NCBI GenBank assembly: GCA_029433345.1
Contig: JAQTHY010000001.1
Coordinates: forward strand, 682,001 to 746,000
Direction: 5' to 3'
DNA from: Orbaceae bacterium ESL0727
GTDB lineage: Bacteria > Pseudomonadota > Gammaproteobacteria > Enterobacterales > Orbaceae
DNA length: 64,000 nt
The translations under genes were made by a program, and so were the position numbers. Under the pieces are notes generated by a model. It was not told where the DNA came from and did not search any database. It was given only the letters and a program-made list of their open reading frames with translations. Position 1 is the first letter of the stretch, and the number at the start of each line of letters is the position of its first letter. Positions 3,188 to 44,362 of the stretch are shown here, one piece after another.

Positions 3188-6100
3188 ATGCTATTTAACC
3201 GTAGACAGTTCTTTAAGATCTGTGCTGGTGGTATGGCTGGAACAACCGTTGCAACACTAGGTTTTGCCCCCAATGTTGCATTAGCGCAAACACGTCAATA
3301 TAAATTATTAAAATCCAAAGAAACCCGTAATAACTGTACTTATTGTTCAGTGGGTTGTGGTATGTTGCTTTATAGTCGTGGTGATGGGGCAAAGAATGCT
3401 GAATCTTCAGTTTTTCATGTCGAAGGCGATCCAGATCATCCAGTAAGTTGTGGTTCACTTTGCCCAAAAGGCGCGGGTGTGCTTGACTATATTAAGAGTC
3501 CTAATCGACTACGTTACCCAGAATACCGTGCGCCAGGTTCGGATAAGTGGCAAAAAATTAGCTGGGATGACGCGATTGATCGTATTGCCCGTCTAATGAA
3601 AGATGATCGCGATAAGAATTTTGTTGAGAAAAATAGCAAAGGTGCGACTGTTAATCGTTGGACAACAACCGGTTGGCTTGTGACCTCGGCCGCGAGTAAT
3701 GAAACCGGCTGGCTTGCCTTTAAAGTGGCGCGTGCACTGGGTATGTTAAGTCTTGAAACACAAGCTCGCGTATGTCATGGTCCATCAGTGTCAAGTTTGG
3801 CGGCGACTTATGGTCGTGGCGCAATGACAAATAACTGGACAGATATTAAAAATGCCAATGTGATTATTGTGATGGGGGGGAATGCCGCCGAAGCTCACCC
3901 CGTTGGTTTTAAATGGGCGATGGAAGCAAAAATCCATAATGGTGCTGAAATCATTGCTATCGATCCCCGTTTCCACCGTACTGCGTCAGTTGCCGATTTA
4001 TATGCCCCAATTCGTGCCGGTTCTGATATCGCATTTCTATTAGGTGTGATCAACTATTTAATTACCAACAATGACGTTAATTTCGAGTATTTAGTTACGC
4101 ATACGAATGCCAGTTTAATCGTTCGTGATGATTTTGATTTTGATACTCATAATGGCTTATTTAGTGGTTATGATGTACAAACACATAAATATGAACAATC
4201 TAGCTGGGCTTATCAACTTGATGAACACGGTTATGCGTTACGTGATAAAACATTAGCGAATCCACGTTGTGTTTGGAACCTTCTGAAAAAACATGTTAGT
4301 CGTTATACACCTGAAGTGGTCAATAATGTGACAGGTACACCGGTTGATAAATTCTTGCATGTCTGTAAATCACTGGCCAGCACAAAAAGCAATGATCGTG
4401 TTGCGACATTTTTATATGCATTAGGTTGGACACAACATAGTTACGGTACCCAAATTATTCGTACTGCAGCGATGATTCAACTTATTTTAGGTAATGTCGG
4501 TATGATGGGTGGCGGCATTAATGCGTTACGTGGACACTCTAATATTCAAGGTTTGACTGATGTCGGTTTACTCTCTAACCGCTTGCCTGCTTATCTTGAG
4601 TTGCCAAAAGAGTCACAACTCTCGCTTGAACAATATTTAGCTGAAAAAACACCAAAACCACTTGGACCAACCGAAGTTAACTTTTGGGGTAATTACCCTA
4701 AATTCTTCGTTAGCTTTATGAAATCCATGTATGGAGATAAAGCCACCAAAGAAAATAACTGGGGATTTGATTGGTTACCTAAATGGGATAAAACTTACGA
4801 CGTATTGCAATTTAGCAATATGATGCGTAATGGACAAGCAAATGGTTTTATTTGCGAAGGCTTTAATCCATTAGCTTCGTTCCCTGATAAACAAAGTATT
4901 CGCGAAGGGTTATCTAAACTCAAATTCTTGATTAATATCGATCCATTACCGACCGAAACAGCTGAGTTTTGGAAAAATTATGGTGAATCTAACGATGTTG
5001 ATCCTAGCCAAATTCAGACCGAAGTCTTTAGACTACCGTCTAACTGCTTTGCCGAAGAAGAAGGGACTATTGTTAACTCCTCTCGTTGGTTACAATGGCA
5101 CTGGTCAGCTGCCGAACCACCTTACGAAGCACTTCATGATCCTGTCATTATTGCGCGTATCTTTTTAAGAATGAAAGAGCTTTATGCGCAAGAAGGGGGA
5201 AGTTACCATGAAGCGCTTGATAACCTTGCTTGGGATTATAAAATACCAAAAGCACCTGCAGCGGCAGAATTGGCAAGAGATTATAATGGCCGTGCATTAG
5301 CTGACTTAACCGATGCGAATGGTAATGTGATCGTTAAAAAAGGTCAGCAATTGAGCAGTTTTGCACAATTAAAAGCCGACGGCACTACGGCATCTGGAAT
5401 TTGGATCTTCTGCGGTTCGTGGACTGAACAAGGCAACCAAATGGCTCGACGTGATCCAAGTGATCCATCAGGTAAAGGTGTTCATCCAGGTTGGTCATGG
5501 GCTTGGCCACTTAACCGCCGTGTGCTTTATAATCGCGCATCTGCTGATGCAAAAGGTAATCCGTGGGATCCAAATCGTCTTTTGGTTAAATGGGATGGTT
5601 CGAGTTGGGTAGGTAATGATGTGGCTGACTTTACTGCAACATTATCACCAGAAAAAGGCGCCGGTGCATTTATCATGAACAATGATGGATTAGGCGGTTT
5701 ATTTTGCGTCAATCGTTTAGTTGATGGTCCATTCCCTGAACATTATGAACCATTTGAAACACCGATTTCGACAAATCCGTTGCATCCTAAACAGATCAAC
5801 AACCCAGTAACACGTGTTTTCAAAGAAGATTTGGCGCGTTTAGGTAATGCAGAAGAGTTCCCTTATGTGGGCACAACATACAGTATTACTGAACATTTCC
5901 ATTTTTGGACACAGCATTCCATCATCAATACCATCACTCAACCGGAACAATTTATCGAAATGAGTGAAAATCTTGCCAATAAAAAAGGCATTAAATTAGG
6001 TGATGTGGTGAAGGTAAGTTCTTATCGTGGATATATCAAGGCTAAAGCGGTGATTACTAAACGGCTTCCAACCTTAACTGTTGATGGTAAAGAAGTAGAA

Positions 6101-6262
6101 ACAATCGGTATACCTATTGTTTTTGGGTATACAGGTGTAGGGAAGAAAGGCTTTCTGATTAATGCATTGACGCCACATTTAGGTGACGCTAATTCACAAA
6201 CACCAGAATATAAAGCATTCCTGGTTAATATTGAAAAAGTTTCTAATTCATCAGCAGCGTAG
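3188..6262 (+). CDS. fdnG: Formate dehydrogenase (N/O type) catalytic subunit, cysteine form
   Basis: This is the molybdopterin subunit of the membrane-bound respiratory formate dehydrogenase, which oxidises formate to CO2 in the periplasm. The 1024 residues match the family length (about 1015). A Tat signal with RRQFFK at residues 5-10 marks folded export. The [4Fe-4S] cysteines are at about 50, 53, 57 and 92. The catalytic position 196, selenocysteine (TGA) in E. coli FdnG and FdoG, is an ordinary Cys codon TGT at 3773-3775, within RVCHGPS. The enzyme therefore needs no Sec insertion machinery. It is the first gene of fdnGHI-fdhE, an order like E. coli fdoGHI-fdhE, while the FNR-like box upstream suggests FdnG-like anaerobic use. 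The FdnG or FdoG name is therefore a choice. Confidence 0.95.
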   Translation: MLFNRRQFFKICAGGMAGTTVATLGFAPNVALAQTRQYKLLKSKETRNNCTYCSVGCGMLLYSRGDGAKNAESSVFHVEGDPDHPVSCGSLCPKGAGVLDYIKSPNRLRYPEYRAPGSDKWQKISWDDAIDRIARLMKDDRDKNFVEKNSKGATVNRWTTTGWLVTSAASNETGWLAFKVARALGMLSLETQARVCHGPSVSSLAATYGRGAMTNNWTDIKNANVIIVMGGNAAEAHPVGFKWAMEAKIHNGAEIIAIDPRFHRTASVADLYAPIRAGSDIAFLLGVINYLITNNDVNFEYLVTHTNASLIVRDDFDFDTHNGLFSGYDVQTHKYEQSSWAYQLDEHGYALRDKTLANPRCVWNLLKKHVSRYTPEVVNNVTGTPVDKFLHVCKSLASTKSNDRVATFLYALGWTQHSYGTQIIRTAAMIQLILGNVGMMGGGINALRGHSNIQGLTDVGLLSNRLPAYLELPKESQLSLEQYLAEKTPKPLGPTEVNFWGNYPKFFVSFMKSMYGDKATKENNWGFDWLPKWDKTYDVLQFSNMMRNGQANGFICEGFNPLASFPDKQSIREGLSKLKFLINIDPLPTETAEFWKNYGESNDVDPSQIQTEVFRLPSNCFAEEEGTIVNSSRWLQWHWSAAEPPYEALHDPVIIARIFLRMKELYAQEGGSYHEALDNLAWDYKIPKAPAAAELARDYNGRALADLTDANGNVIVKKGQQLSSFAQLKADGTTASGIWIFCGSWTEQGNQMARRDPSDPSGKGVHPGWSWAWPLNRRVLYNRASADAKGNPWDPNRLLVKWDGSSWVGNDVADFTATLSPEKGAGAFIMNNDGLGGLFCVNRLVDGPFPEHYEPFETPISTNPLHPKQINNPVTRVFKEDLARLGNAEEFPYVGTTYSITEHFHFWTQHSIINTITQPEQFIEMSENLANKKGIKLGDVVKVSSYRGYIKAKAVITKRLPTLTVDGKEVETIGIPIVFGYTGVGKKGFLINALTPHLGDANSQTPEYKAFLVNIEKVSNSSAA

Positions 6263-6279
6263 TCATAGGAGGCTAAATT

Positions 6280-7245
6280 ATGTCATTACAAACTCAAGAC
6301 ATCATTCGACGCTCAGCTACCAATGCGATTACGCCTGCGCCGCGAGCAAGAGACTTTCAACAAGAAGTCGCTAAATTGATTGATGTGACAACCTGTATTG
6401 GTTGTAAAGCATGCCAAGTTGCATGTAGTGAATGGAACGATCTGCGTGCCGATTTTGGTCAAAATGTGGGGATTTATGATAATCCTACCGATTTAGAGCC
6501 GAAAGCGTGGACCGTCATGCGTTATTCTGAAGTGGAAGTTAACGGTAAATTTGAATGGTTAATTCGTAAAGATGGTTGTATGCACTGTGCCGATCCAGGC
6601 TGTTTGAAAGCCTGCCCATCAGAAGGTGCGATTATCCAGTATGCTAACGGTATTGTCGATTTCCAATCAGAACATTGTATCGGTTGTGGATATTGTATTG
6701 CGGGTTGCCCATTTAATATCCCACGGGTGAGCAAAGAAGATAATCACTCTTACAAATGTACATTATGTGTTGATCGGGTGGCAGTTGGTCAAGAACCAGC
6801 TTGCGTTAAAACTTGTCCTACTGGTGCTATCCATTTTGGTACCAAAGCGGATATGATTCGTCACGCCGAACACCGCATTGAGGATTTGAAAAATCGCGGC
6901 TTTACTCATGCGGGACTTTATAATCCAGAAGGTGTGGGGGGTACACATGTTATGTATGTGCTTCATCATGCAGATCAACCTGAGTTATATCACGGATTAC
7001 CAAAAGATCCGCATATTAGTGAAGTGGTGAAATTCTGGAAAGGGGCATGGAAACCAATTTCTGCTGCTGCCTTTGTCGCAACCTTTGCCGGCTTACTCTT
7101 CCATTATATGGGGGTAGGACCGATCGAAGTCGATGAAGAAGATATTGAAGGTGAAAAAGAGTATGAAAAAAGTGCACGCGCTGCTTTTATAGCCAACAAA
7201 AGTAAATCAGCCGCACCTACAAGCGAGGAACATCGTCATGAATAA
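6280..7245 (+). CDS. fdnH: Formate dehydrogenase iron-sulfur (beta) subunit
   Basis: The 321-residue electron-transfer subunit carries four ferredoxin-type cysteine clusters in order: [35 protein letters not shown] and CTLCVDRV...CVKTC. They pass electrons from FdnG toward the membrane heme subunit. Near the C terminus one hydrophobic segment ([20 protein letters not shown]) is the single membrane anchor known for FdnH/FdoH. The tail beyond it is acidic and then Lys/Ala-rich, and makes the protein about 20-25 residues longer than the E. coli versions. It starts 17 bp after fdnG behind an AGGAGG-like site, and its end overlaps the start of fdnI by 8 bp, so translation is probably coupled. Confidence 0.95.
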
Positions 7246-7912
7246 GAAAGATCTCATTTTAAGAACGCCACTGATTATCCGTTTTTGTCATTGGGTCATG
7301 GTCTGTCTTTTTATTTTAACGGCGTTTTCTGGGTTATCGCTCTTTTTCCCATCGCTCTCAATATTTGGTCTCTTTCTTGGGACACCACAATTAGTTAGAG
7401 CGCTGCATCCAATTTTAGGTTGTATTGTGTTTGTGATACTGATCTTCATGGGGATTCGCTTAGCGCACCATAATATTCCTAATAAAGATGATCTATTGTG
7501 GATAAAAAATATGAAGCAAGTTATTGCGGGTCAAGAAGGGGGCATTCCTATTGGCAAATATAATGTTGGCCAAAAATTCCTTTTCTGGAGCATTATGAGC
7601 TTAATTACGGTACTGTTTATTACTGGATTGGTTATGTGGCGACACTATTTTTCCGACTATTTCCCAATCCCAGTCGTCCGTATCGCGATTTTCTTGCACT
7701 CTTTAGCCGCGATTGCCTTGATTTTGTTGGCTATTGGTCACGCTTATATGGCGATGTGGGTTACAGGTTCTATTAAAGGGATGATTACCGGGTATGTATC
7801 GCGTGCTTGGGCGAGAAAAAATCATTCTAAATGGTATCAGTCTGAAATGGAAAAAGTGTTCCAAAATGAAGAACTGAAATCAGAAACTGCACCTAAAACC
7901 GAGTCAAAATAG
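7238..7912 (+). CDS. fdnI: Formate dehydrogenase cytochrome b556 (gamma) subunit
   Basis: This 224-residue integral membrane protein has four strongly hydrophobic segments and several conserved histidines (RFCHWVMV near the N terminus, [14 protein letters not shown] and IGHAYMAMW). The pattern is that of the di-heme cytochrome b subunit that takes electrons from FdnH and reduces quinone at the cytoplasmic side of the inner membrane. The start overlaps the end of fdnH. The C-terminal tail is charged and presumably cytoplasmic. It is followed 31 bp later by fdhE. Confidence 0.93.
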
Positions 7913-7943
7913 TCAAAACAGTTGAAAAAAGAGTTATAACATT

Positions 7944-8879
7944 ATGAGCATAAAGATTCTTCCACAAACCGAATTAGAGCAGCAGTCCAACAAAAAGTCA
8001 GCCGGTCATGTTGTCAGAACGATTCCGCTGCTTTTCTATCCTGCCCCAAATGTGCTTTATGCTCATCGTTTAGAAAGATTGCAAGCACTGGCTAAAGAGA
8101 GTCCATTTGCCGATTATCTTCAGTTCTGTGCTAGCATTGTTGCTGAACAGTTAGAATTACTCAAACAGGATCCTATCCATGTCGATCTGACCAAAGCGCT
8201 TACTGCTGATACAGATTTACCGCCATTAAGTTTAGCTAATTATCCACTTAACCATGATTGGCAGCGATATTTGGAAAAATTATTGGCTTCATTACCGAAA
8301 ATGACAGACGAAATAGCCAAATTGATTGAGGAGTTGCAGAAAAATAGCCCTGAGCAATATCAAGAAAAGGCGTTACGATTGTTAAATGGTGAATTTGATA
8401 AAGTCAGCAGTAACGAATCCTTGTTTATTTGGGCGGCGTTATCACTTTATTACACACAGTTGGCTAGCCAAATCAAAGGTAAAGCCTTTGCTGAAAATAG
8501 TGATAAAAGCTGGCTCTGCCCCGTCTGCAATAGTTTACCTGTGGCAAGTACGATTCATATCGGCCAGAATCTAGGTCTGCGTTATTTACATTGTAGTTTA
8601 TGTGAAAGCGAATGGTATGTACCGAGAGTAAAATGTACCAGCTGTGATAATCTACAAGATATTCATTACTTTTCGTTAGATGACGAACGTGCCGCGACAC
8701 AAGCTGAATGTTGTGATCACTGCCATAGCTATCTAAAAATCTTTAATCAAGAACTTGCCCCGCACCTTGATGTGATTGCTGATGATATTGCCACACTGAT
8801 GCTGGATATGAAAACCGAAGAAGAAGGTTTTGCAAAAAGCGGTCTTAATCCATTTTTATTCGCACAAAAATTGGCATAA
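7944..8879 (+). CDS. fdhE: Formate dehydrogenase accessory protein FdhE
   Basis: The 311 residues match FdhE in length (309 in E. coli). The C-terminal half has the four CxxC pairs expected of this rubredoxin-like iron-binding factor: CPVC, CSLC, CTSC and CDHC. FdhE is a cytoplasmic protein needed to mature Tat-exported respiratory formate dehydrogenases, and its place directly after fdnGHI fits. It is the last gene of the operon; transcription meets amiC convergently about 300 bp further on. Confidence 0.93.
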   Translation: MSIKILPQTELEQQSNKKSAGHVVRTIPLLFYPAPNVLYAHRLERLQALAKESPFADYLQFCASIVAEQLELLKQDPIHVDLTKALTADTDLPPLSLANYPLNHDWQRYLEKLLASLPKMTDEIAKLIEELQKNSPEQYQEKALRLLNGEFDKVSSNESLFIWAALSLYYTQLASQIKGKAFAENSDKSWLCPVCNSLPVASTIHIGQNLGLRYLHCSLCESEWYVPRVKCTSCDNLQDIHYFSLDDERAATQAECCDHCHSYLKIFNQELAPHLDVIADDIATLMLDMKTEEEGFAKSGLNPFLFAQKLA

Positions 8880-9189: not shown

Positions 9190-10416
9190 TTAGTTTTTTC
9201 GCTTCTTAATATAGTCTTTGATACCTTCAACGATCGCTTTGGACACTTTATTTTGGAAGTCGGCAGTCTTGAGTTTCTGCTCTTCAGCTGGATTACTGAT
9301 AAACGCCGTTTCGACTAATACTGATGGGATATCCGGTGCTTTTAATACAGCAAATCCCGCTTTTTCGATGGACGGTTTGTGCATTTTGTTCACTTTCTTC
9401 ATGCGATTTAGGATCGATGTTCCCAATAGTACGCCATTGCTCAGCGTCGTTTTTTGGACTAAATCTAAAATGGTATTATCTAAATATTTATCACCACTGC
9501 GGCTCACGCCGCCAATCTCGTCTGCTTCGTTTTGTGTTTGTGCTAAATAGCTAGCGGCAGAACTACTGGCACCACGGGTGGAGAGCGAAAATACTGACGA
9601 ACCATTGACCGAACGGCTAGCAAACGCGTCAGCATGGATAGAGATAAAAAGATCGGCACGTTGCGCACGTGCTTTGGCAACACGGACTTTTAAAGGCAGA
9701 AAGACATCTTCATTACGCGTCATATAGACTTTTATTTGTGATTCACTTTTTAATAAATTACGTACTCGCCTTGCAATTTGCAAGACAACATCTTTTTCGC
9801 GCGTTTTTTTATAACCAATTGCGCCGGGATCTTCGCCACCATGACCGGGATCGAGCATCACCACCACTTTATTGCTTTTTTTGGTTGTCGAGGTTGCTAC
9901 GTTGGTCGGTTTTTCGGTTAGGCTCCCTTTATTGTATTCTTCAAGAAGTGCTAATAAAGGATCATCATCAACCGCTTTAGGGTTGCTTGGGTACAGATCA
10001 ATCACTAACCGATTTTTAAATTCAGCGATGGGCTGCGAGGTAAAGAGATGGGGTTTCACGCCTTGTTTTAGGCCAATAACGAGACGAATTGTTTGCGGAT
10101 CATATTGCGCAACACGCAGCGTTTTTATGTAGGGATCGTCTTTAAAGAGTTGCGATTGTAATTTTTTGAGAACCGGATTTAGGCTGACATTGTCAACATC
10201 TACCACAATCCTATCAGGATTATTCATGGTGAAATGTTTATACGTCAATTTGACATTAGATTCTAACGTAATACGTGTATAGGTAGATGAAGGCCACACA
10301 CGCGCGGCTAATATTTGCGTGGGCGCCGCAAAACCAACTCGCGTGATCGAAAGTAAACACGTCGCGACAATTCCTTTAATTAAAAGACGTCTTGTGAGAT
10401 TCAATTCTTCGCGCAT
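9190..10416 (-). CDS. amiC: N-acetylmuramoyl-L-alanine amidase AmiC, Tat-exported
   Basis: This is a periplasmic zinc amidase that removes peptides from peptidoglycan and helps separate daughter cells. The 408 residues begin with a Tat signal (TRRLLIKG, then a hydrophobic stretch ending GFAAP). An AMIN domain follows at about 33-150, a low-complexity linker, and then an Amidase_3 domain from about residue 187, with zinc-binding motifs [12 protein letters not shown] and SIHADAF and the catalytic Glu in [13 protein letters not shown] plus Tat signal is the AmiC/AmiA layout; the AMIN domain favours AmiC. Amidase_3 enzymes of this class are normally switched on by EnvC or NlpD, neither of which is in the window. 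It is divergent from miaB. Confidence 0.92.
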
Positions 10417-42523: not shown

Positions 42524-43303
42524 TTATCGGGTTGTCTCATTGTCACCTTCATTGGTAGGATGATGATTACAGACAGGACAATGGCGCGATCGACTCCGCA
42601 TTAACGTTTGCCAACTGAGATCTAAGCCATTAAATAACTGAATATGGGAATCTAACAGGGAGGGGATCTGGCAGATCTTCTTAATTGCTTCTAATGCTTG
42701 CAATGTGCCCATCATACCGACCACCGGTCCCAAAACACCTGCGGTTTGGCAGTTACGTGTCACTTCTTGTCCATCAGGATATAAACAGGCATAGCATCCA
42801 TGTTGGTAAGGTGGTTGGAAAATGGTAATTTGCCCGTGAAAGCCGATAGCGCTAGCACTAATGCAGGTTTTGCTTAAGCTTACGCACACTCGATTAATTA
42901 AGAGCCGACTTGGCATATTATCTGTACAATCTAAAACCACATCGGCTTGTTTGATCTGTTTGGTTAATTGCGCCTGATTGAGCCTTTGGGTAATAATCGT
43001 AATTTGGCAATCAGGATTAATGGCACGTAACCGTTTTTGGGCCGCTTCTGTTTTGAGTTTATCAATATCAAAGCTGTTATATAAGGTTTGTCGTTGTAGA
43101 TTTGAGATATGTACTATATCGTCATCGATTATCGTTAATTTACCGATTCCTGCACTGGCTAAATAGTGCGCAGCGGGTGATCCCAATCCACCTAGACCAA
43201 TAATGATGATGTGCGCATTGAGTAGTTGAGTTTGCCGGTTTTCGCCAATTTCGGCGATAAGTAATTGACGACTATACCGCATGAATTGTTGATCGGTTAA
43301 CAT
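42524..43303 (-). CDS. thiF: ThiS adenylyltransferase ThiF
   Basis: This E1-like enzyme activates the ThiS C terminus. The 259 residues carry the nucleotide-binding GLGGLGSPAAHYLASAGIG, the RQTLYNSFDIDKLKTEAA segment, DCTDNMPSR, and the zinc CxxC pairs CYAC and CPVC. These features fit ThiF as well as the closely related MoeB; the place between thiE and thiS decides for ThiF. The start follows the thiE stop by 9 bp. Confidence 0.92.
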   Translation of the reverse strand: MLTDQQFMRYSRQLLIAEIGENRQTQLLNAHIIIIGLGGLGSPAAHYLASAGIGKLTIIDDDIVHISNLQRQTLYNSFDIDKLKTEAAQKRLRAINPDCQITIITQRLNQAQLTKQIKQADVVLDCTDNMPSRLLINRVCVSLSKTCISASAIGFHGQITIFQPPYQHGCYACLYPDGQEVTRNCQTAGVLGPVVGMMGTLQALEAIKKICQIPSLLDSHIQLFNGLDLSWQTLMRSRSRHCPVCNHHPTNEGDNETTR

Positions 43304-43312
43304 GATTTTCCC

Positions 43313-44011
43313 TTACTCATGATCCTGAGGTAGTTTTTGATGTCGTTCTTGAGGCAGATATTGAGAAACTAATTTTTGTAGCTGCAAGGTTGCTTGCCGC
43401 CAATCAACAGCCTTGGTAATCGCACTGACAACCGCGATGCTGCCCACACCGGTTTTTAAGACTGCTTCGGCGCGATCAATCGATATGCCGCCGATAGCCA
43501 CAGTTGGTATCTGCTGTAATTTTTTTACTTGCTCAGCTAAGGCAATTAATCCTTGTGGTTTAGATGGCATCTGTTTAGTTTGGGTCGGGAAGATATGGCC
43601 TAAAGCGATATAAGAAGGATGAATAGCTAAAATATTGTCAATTTCGCGATCACAATGTGTCGAAATACCTAAGCGTAATTTTGCTTCAGCAATAGCGCTT
43701 AAATCGGCAGTTTGTATATCTTCTTGCCCTAAATGCACACCATAGGCATGATGTTTGATAGCAAGTTGCCAATAATCATTAATAAATAAGCGTGCTTGAT
43801 ATTGTTTGCCAAGTAAAATAGCCTGCATAATATCCGCTTCAACTTTAGCGGGTTGGCGGTTTTTGATGCGCAGTTGTATTGTTTTTATGCCCAGTGGTAA
43901 TAATTTAGCCAGCCATGCCACCGAATCAACAACAGGATAAAGGCCTAATTGGTGAGCCGTTGGTGGAAAATGCATTGCAGGTAAGCGAATTGCTGGATTA
44001 GTCGATAACAT
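43313..44011 (-). CDS. thiE: Thiamine-phosphate synthase ThiE
   Basis: ThiE couples the pyrimidine and thiazole halves into thiamine phosphate. The 232-residue TIM barrel shows [58 protein letters not shown] and [11 protein letters not shown], all family signatures. It is the first gene after the TPP riboswitch. Confidence 0.94.
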
Positions 44012-44104: not shown

Positions 44105-44126
44105 GTGTAATTTGTACAGATTACAC
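44105..44126 (-). other. Hairpin directly after the TPP aptamer
   Basis: GTGTAAT / ATTACAC form a 7-bp stem with an 8-nt loop in the thiE leader. It touches the last base pair of aptamer stem P1, so it could be part of the expression platform. No T-run follows. Confidence 0.45.
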
Positions 44127-44238
44127 TTGTTTCCTTCGCAGGGACTAACCTGATCAGGTTCCACGGATTCCACCTTAGGTGATCTCAGCTGTATGATTTA
44201 GTTTTATTGGCTAAATCTTTTACGAGCACTCCGACAAG
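44126..44238 (-). ncRNA. TPP riboswitch (THI element)
   Basis: Read on the minus strand, the leader has P1 CTTGTC paired with ACAAG at the far end. It also has the conserved GGAGTGC and GCTGAGAT, then GGAACCTGATCAGGTTAG and the closing CTGCGAAGGAAAC. These are the invariant TPP aptamer elements in the right order. The region between the first and second conserved blocks forms the variable arm. It lies about 115 nt before thiE and should shut off the operon when thiamine diphosphate is plentiful. Confidence 0.93.
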
Positions 44239-44362
44239 ATACTTGTACGTCAGTTTGTCACTGATAAAAATGTTAGTCAATCGATTTTTACAAATGTTAG
44301 GGTTGGCTCAATGTACGGTTTATCTGTATAGATTGATTAATTACATCTTTATAACTGAGCCA

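Follow-up and report, generated by a model that had tools for sequence, protein, structure and literature searches.

The locus analyzed here raises the question of how a respiratory formate dehydrogenase came to carry Cys where the E. coli enzyme carries selenocysteine (Sec), and whether this form is confined to one genome or belongs to a wider lineage. The source organism, Orbaceae bacterium ESL0727, is a relative of the bee-gut bacterium Gilliamella, and the whole stretch of its DNA that was analyzed (64,000 nucleotides, positions 682,001-746,000 of contig JAQTHY010000001.1) is called the window below. An fdnG/fdoG-type gene encoding a formate dehydrogenase-N alpha subunit of 1024 amino acids starts with ATG and spans positions 3188-6262 (+), its product scoring above the curated TIGR01553 cut-off (1491.2 vs 814.2 bits). 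The initial annotation had reported TGT instead of TGA at codon 196 (3773-3775, +), which was borne out both by direct reading and by alignment, where Cys196 is paired with position 196 of E. coli FdnG in 1kqf, given there as X. TGA is found at this codon in the E. coli locus L108 and in all 44 named Sec loci listed. All surrounding residues had also been described as conserved. This holds for the core QARV-C-HGP, which is identical, but not for the wider 29-residue stretch around codon 196, which reads LSLETQARVCHGPSVSSLAATYGRGAMTN in the window and LAVDNQARVUHGPTVASLAPTFGRGAMTN in L108 and differs at 8 of the 28 other residues.

The gene heads an intact fdnG-fdnH-fdnI-fdhE operon (3188-8879), in which fdnH (iron-sulfur beta subunit, 6280-7245, +; TIGR01582, 468.9 bits), fdnI (cytochrome b gamma subunit, 7238-7912, +; TIGR01583, 183.2 bits) and fdhE (formate dehydrogenase accessory protein, 7944-8879, +; TIGR01562) all exceed their model cut-offs. 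FdhD is required for formate dehydrogenase activity. FdnG keeps RR at residues 5-6 as well as C50, C53, C57, C92, H197 and R448, which we take to be the twin-arginine leader, the four 4Fe-4S cysteines, a key His and the active-site Arg, respectively. The operon would encode a standard periplasm-facing formate:quinone oxidoreductase of the FDH-N/O type, in which Cys196 instead of Sec196 serves as the protein ligand of the bis-MGD metal centre. The Cys enzyme is predicted to be active, with formate being oxidised and electrons passing via FdnH and FdnI to quinone without selenium. The best solved relative is E. coli FdnGHI (1kqf, 1624.6 bits), which belongs to the same family and agrees in length, operon order and the Fe-S and metal-site residues. 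The window's enzyme differs in having Cys at position 196 and, at 899 (896 in E. coli), Ser instead of Arg; in addition, no SECIS element over threshold is found in the window and no sel genes over cut-off in the genome.

The initial annotation had proposed that the Cys form frees the pathway from Sec insertion and had pointed to selA, selB, selC and selD as the genes to look for. Across the 2.15 Mb genome, which is 99.96% complete, no match over the curated cut-off was found for SelA, SelB, SelD or tRNA-Sec, in support of this proposal. A hidden Sec system was considered and rejected: all 8 SelB matches fall below the cut-off, and 8 of the 9 tRNA-Sec candidates (the 8 that were read) lie on ordinary tRNAs. 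Judged by their typical score pattern, the SelB matches are presumably EF-Tu and other translation GTPases. Three PF00384 candidates were scored, yielding two genes only, fdnG and a DMSO-reductase type (DmsA-type) gene, and no second formate dehydrogenase was found among the PF00384 proteins of this genome. The organism thus appears, as far as its gene content tells, to do without Sec insertion, and presumably encodes no other selenoprotein. It is extremely improbable that the window's fdnG is a spare Cys copy beside a selenoprotein that acts as the organism's main formate dehydrogenase. Cys and Sec pairs do exist in at least four genomes of the order sample described below (G237, G279, G351 and G394, all with SelB), but the mark of a spare copy named in the initial annotation, a complete Sec system together with a Sec-type fdnG, was not found here, because the genome holds no Sec machinery over cut-off and only two PF00384 genes, the other being DmsA-type.

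Within the family, named FdnG matches include Gilliamella, Orbus, Schmidhempelia and Zophobihabitans, which is the basis of the Orbaceae label. The closest named match is from Orbaceae bacterium ESL0721 (88% identity; the search may omit the genome itself), and FdnG proteins of the same genus are 84-88% identical to that of the window. An fdnG gene without in-frame TGA was found in 43 of 44 Orbaceae genomes, the only one without an fdnG match being G034, which is 86% complete; the fdnG of G041 shows TAG. TGT or TGC was read directly at codon 196 in 42 of these 43 genomes, while G003 is known only to be stop-free. Because of these direct readings, Cys196 is not a sequencing accident. The comparison of residue 196 across the family, also suggested in the initial annotation, shows Cys family-wide, and a mutation private to this genome is ruled out. 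A decaying, non-functional enzyme in a host-restricted bacterium is very unlikely as well. Such decay could be expected from laboratory Sec-to-Cys variants, which are strongly impaired according to the accessible part of a review (PMC13397495), where the E. coli enzyme is described as significantly affected and the strong impact as confirmed by NvFdhAB. However, the reading frame is intact together with fdnH, fdnI and fdhE, key residues are kept, fdnH and fdnI are present in all 15 Orbaceae rows tested and fdhE in all 8 other Orbaceae loci scanned, and same-genus identity is high at the values given above.

The relation between the Cys form and Sec decoding was assessed in an order sample of 394 genomes, 104 of which had an FdnG match, with at most two candidates scored per genome. 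SelB exceeded the cut-off in 65 of 65 genomes with a TGA-containing fdnG and was missing in 35 of 39 Cys-only genomes, the other four being Orbaceae that carry sel genes; one genome, G230, was counted as Cys-only from the absence of TGA alone. It should be noted that these genomes share ancestry and that a Fisher value for this association is not a clean probability. A further 12 order-sample genomes encode SelB without an FdnG match. One genome, G331:C1, encodes SelB twice, with both copies above the cut-off (509 and 262 bits; L147, L190). Outside the order sample, TGA-free fdnG genes account for 1 of 12 class-sample matches (the window's own), 6 of 61 phylum-sample matches and 5 of 128 matches from the family to which G237 belongs.

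FdnG trees were calculated with residue 196 masked, and groups were named after the first tree had been seen. The 68-row tree contains three Sec/Cys changes and unites 15 Orbaceae and 15 Enterobacterales Cys rows in one clade (100/99). Three changes are still found in a 117-row tree (40 Cys, 77 Sec), which keeps the large Cys clade at 100/99. Two Cys FdnG proteins from outside the order, one of them from another class (L196 of G986 and L197 of G1037, the latter a long branch in the 117-row tree), join the Enterobacterales Cys rows (100/99). G986 also carries a Sec fdnG copy followed by fdhE, selA and selB (L198). The Enterobacterales Cys clade, comprising Edaphovirga, Photorhabdus, Brenneria, Acerihabitans, Citrobacter youngae and others, contains the window's nearest Cys relatives on the FdnG tree. 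Its members share 90S, 216N and 242K and nearly always 427A and 899S with the window, but mostly carry QARLC instead of QARVC. Overall identity of the window's FdnG is about equal to both forms, namely 63-67% to the Enterobacterales Cys proteins (nine pairs) and 66-68% to the best Enterobacterales Sec proteins. A Pasteurellaceae-type Cys clade (L152, L217, L225, L231, L246) has several of the window's co-substitutions, but represents a separate Sec/Cys change. Forcing the Cys and Sec rows of Enterobacterales into one group lowers the likelihood by 43 log units (p-AU 0.008), and grouping Orbaceae with the Pasteurellaceae-type rows lowers it by 59 log units (p-AU 0.0015); both arrangements are rejected. 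The Cys trait is probably common to Orbaceae and the Enterobacterales Cys clade.

Alternatively, Sec could have been replaced by Cys in the ancestor of Orbaceae only, with the shared residues being convergent adjustments that pull the two clades together. We regard such a separate origin as rather unlikely, although part of the data is compatible with it. Nine shared derived columns link Orbaceae with the Enterobacterales Cys rows, compared with 2 and 5 for the other pairings, but four of the Cys-associated states (90S, 242K, 279S and 899S) recur in the Pasteurellaceae-type Cys clade, so convergence at these sites does happen. When 17 columns are left out, the tree expected from an Orbaceae-only origin is no longer rejected (p-AU 0.17); the union nevertheless persists at 96/89, and residues 91-400 by themselves yield it with 96 SH-aLRT support. 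That segment is the only one of four in which the union appears in the best tree; it is unrejected in the other three, and in two of these the tree with the union enforced outscores the free quick search. Three of the four segments recover the Enterobacterales Cys rows as a clade (82, 92, 98), residues 1-90 giving no resolution.

Several residues far from position 196 change together with Cys. The most consistent one is codon 899 (5882-5884, +), AGT for Ser in the window and equivalent to E. coli Arg896 in the alignment to 1kqf. Arg occupies this position in 72 of 77 Sec rows, the five exceptions being all five Sec rows of a third group, f6, and in 0 of 40 Cys rows, where Ser (37), Gly (2) or Cys (1) is found. 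Loss of Arg899 therefore accompanies Cys in two separate lineages, while the third, f6, lacks Arg in Sec and Cys forms alike. Codons 90 (3455-3457, +; Ser) and 242 (3911-3913, +; Lys) also show Cys-associated states, the corresponding residues being Ala and Arg in all 53 Enterobacterales and Pasteurellaceae-type Sec rows. Every one of the 37 Cys rows in the large clade and the Pasteurellaceae-type clade carries Ser90 and Lys242, and neither state is present in the 3 Cys rows of f6. In the 19 background Sec rows, position 90 is occupied by Thr or Ser and position 242 in most cases by Lys. Asp at codon 846 (5723-5725, +) is a weaker Cys-associated state, Sec rows being mixed for Glu and Asp. In the Pasteurellaceae-type Cys clade, 4 of 16 shared Cys states are found among its 57 derived columns, compared with 5 among 665 derived columns in seven Sec control clades (three of them in one clade) and 1 among 127 in the f6 Cys clade. 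The difference between the Pasteurellaceae-type Cys clade and the Sec controls gives a Fisher p of 0.003, a post hoc value from related rows in a test designed after the shared-column count had been seen. The data do not amount to statistical proof of compensation: only three Sec/Cys changes are available, the f6 Sec rows already lack Arg899, and 216N and 279S also occur in a Sec control clade. The co-substitutions may help the enzyme to work with Cys. The Sec-containing FdhF of G012, discussed below, has an Arg within a TVREVGHY stretch that, matched by eye, seemingly corresponds to position 899.

The former Sec insertion signal was analyzed as well. At a lax threshold, a degraded SECIS_3 (RF01989) region is found at 3770-3828 (+) with 38.4 bits (E 2.2e-7; gathering score 63). 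The same model scores 84.3 bits in the Sec loci L108 and L080, and nothing exceeds its gathering score in the window or in L118, L134 and L073. The initial annotation's view of a change specific to residue 196 is not supported, given the degraded SECIS region and the distant positions that change with Cys. Folding lends no support to a preserved hairpin: 3773-3815 folds no better than shuffled sequences (z 0.57). This test discriminates poorly, because the Cys locus L055 (z -1.38) folds like the Sec loci (-1.11). The weak RF01989 match may represent a SECIS remnant or coding conservation; an FdhA with a remnant SECIS has been described from Mannheimia (PMC1794560, accessible part). Upstream of the Sec fdoG of Serratia oryzae, an FdoG-1 5' UTR thermometer (RF02778) is located at 2824-3030 of L080, and no RF02778 match over the gathering score was found upstream of the window's fdnG. 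Elsewhere in the window, a TPP riboswitch (RF00059, 71.2 bits) at 44114-44243 (-) precedes a thiamine phosphate synthase gene (43313-44011, -) and, behind it, a ThiF/MoeB-type gene (42524-43303, -).

The genes for the other subunits tell a different story from fdnG. The union of Orbaceae and Enterobacterales Cys rows is rejected for fdnH (p-AU 3.6e-6), and this lack of support for the union could favor the rather unlikely Orbaceae-only origin. It arises mainly because the Enterobacterales Cys rows scatter in fdnH: taken alone, they are rejected as a clade both there (p-AU 3.1e-6) and in fdnI (p-AU 4.5e-48), a short row, L110, having been left out of the fdnH test and being absent from the fdnI set. 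Three Cys rows (L118 from Citrobacter youngae, L111 from Lelliottia, and L161) fall into the Sec FdnN group in fdnH (99/99) and, with weaker support, in fdnI (65/70), a placement that is rejected for FdnG by a margin of 416 log units (p-AU 8e-8). The Edaphovirga Cys operon (L097) is flanked on either side by sequence that matches the region around the Sec operon of Serratia oryzae (L080). This discordance apparently reflects exchange of the Cys catalytic gene into resident operons, which is the simplest reading of these trees and flanks for the Enterobacterales Cys members only. That the Citrobacter-type Cys operon occupies the E. coli fdn locus is unsupported, as the operon alone was matched and no flanks. 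G237 has two fdn operons (L152 and L153), one Cys and one Sec, with identical FdnH rows and FdnG proteins that are 73% identical; its fdnH looks like a case of recent gene conversion.

In some Sec relatives, unlike in the window, fdhE is followed by sel genes. Both selA and selB follow it in L143, L144, L145 and L198 (those of L144 being confirmed by curated models), and selA follows it in L095; within the stretches examined, neither was found after fdhE in the Sec loci L080, L084, L088, L098 and L120. In the window, fdhE is followed by a gene on the minus strand (9190-10416, -), which makes loss of selAB from that spot possible.

Four of the 44 Orbaceae genomes (G012, G013, G030 and G039) have SelA, SelD and tRNA-Sec over cut-off, and the same four exceed the SelB cut-off among those family genomes drawn into the order sample, where SelB was searched. 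Their fdnG genes still encode Cys (L026, L023, L025, L054). G012, G013 and G030 have their sel genes clustered in about 9 kb, and in G039 selA is found some 5 kb from a selB-selD pair with other genes in between. In the two regions that were translated (L154, L155), the neighbors of selA read, from their translations, as hyp genes and a regulator of the fhlA type. At a distance of 4 to 22 kb from the sel genes, all four genomes encode an FdhF-like protein (742-757 codons) whose frame contains a TGA in the motif CARVUHGPSVAG. The sel genes most likely serve this Sec FdhF. SelB of the four scores 287-303 bits, whereas the top SelB match in the 65 genomes with TGA-containing fdnG reaches about 409-917 bits, a gap that suggests a different origin. 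We infer that the four Orbaceae gained rather than retained their sel genes, probably through transfer of a formate-hydrogenlyase and Sec package (L154, L155, L156, L188, L193, L249, L251). Co-transfer of sel genes with a selenoprotein gene has been reported in the accessible part of Zhang et al. 2006 (PMC1794560).

That same text describes 15 Sec-to-Cys events, which mainly affect FdhA (46.7% of them) and SelD, and lists none in the opposite direction for FdhA. The basic finding made here is thus a known kind of change. A difference is that 11 of the Cys homologs treated there occur in Sec-decoding organisms, while in the window's genome decoding appears to be gone; the accessible part of that paper mentions neither Orbaceae nor exchange of a Cys catalytic gene between operons. 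A table in PMC1242214, as far as accessible, gives a formate dehydrogenase candidate for Photorhabdus luminescens, so a Cys FdnG does not by itself imply that Photorhabdus has lost Sec. The accessible text of PMC6558740 does not mention formate, and that of PMC5029168 has nothing on FdhA. Literature on Gilliamella and formate dehydrogenase exists. A search with most subscription journals outside its scope found no work joining Orbaceae with selenocysteine, none joining selenocysteine, formate hydrogenlyase and the honey bee, and none on a mobile Cys clade or the Arg899 association.

Taken as a whole, the locus is likely to encode a selenium-free Cys196 formate dehydrogenase of the N/O type that descends from an old shared Cys lineage of FdnG, with loss of the sel genes following later. 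The Cys form would be common to some Enterobacterales and a few other bacteria, and this lineage would have lost its SECIS element and acquired a few substitutions far from residue 196, the replacement of Arg899 by Ser being the most consistent. Once FdnG had become independent of Sec, most Orbaceae could do without sel genes and lose them, an order of events that we infer from their present distribution; the four sel-bearing members would carry theirs for the Sec FdhF. Further, we tentatively hypothesize that Cys fdnG, pre-adapted by Ser899 and a few permissive residues, is itself the travelling unit. By recombination it may replace Sec fdnG in resident fdnHI operons, coexist with a Sec formate dehydrogenase in some hosts and, upon takeover, allow its host to drop the Sec system. 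Orbaceae would then represent a complete takeover, with some members later gaining a Sec cassette for a different enzyme.

Cys enzymes that arose naturally from Sec forms point to residues that may allow a metal-dependent formate dehydrogenase to function without selenium, which is of practical interest for CO2/formate catalysis, and the change of Arg899 (E. coli Arg896) in two separate Cys lineages is a specific and testable candidate. The distribution also provides a natural series for the loss of a genetic-code expansion, comprising genomes with a Sec formate dehydrogenase alone, with both forms, with the Cys form alone, and with a Cys FdnG despite the presence of sel genes.
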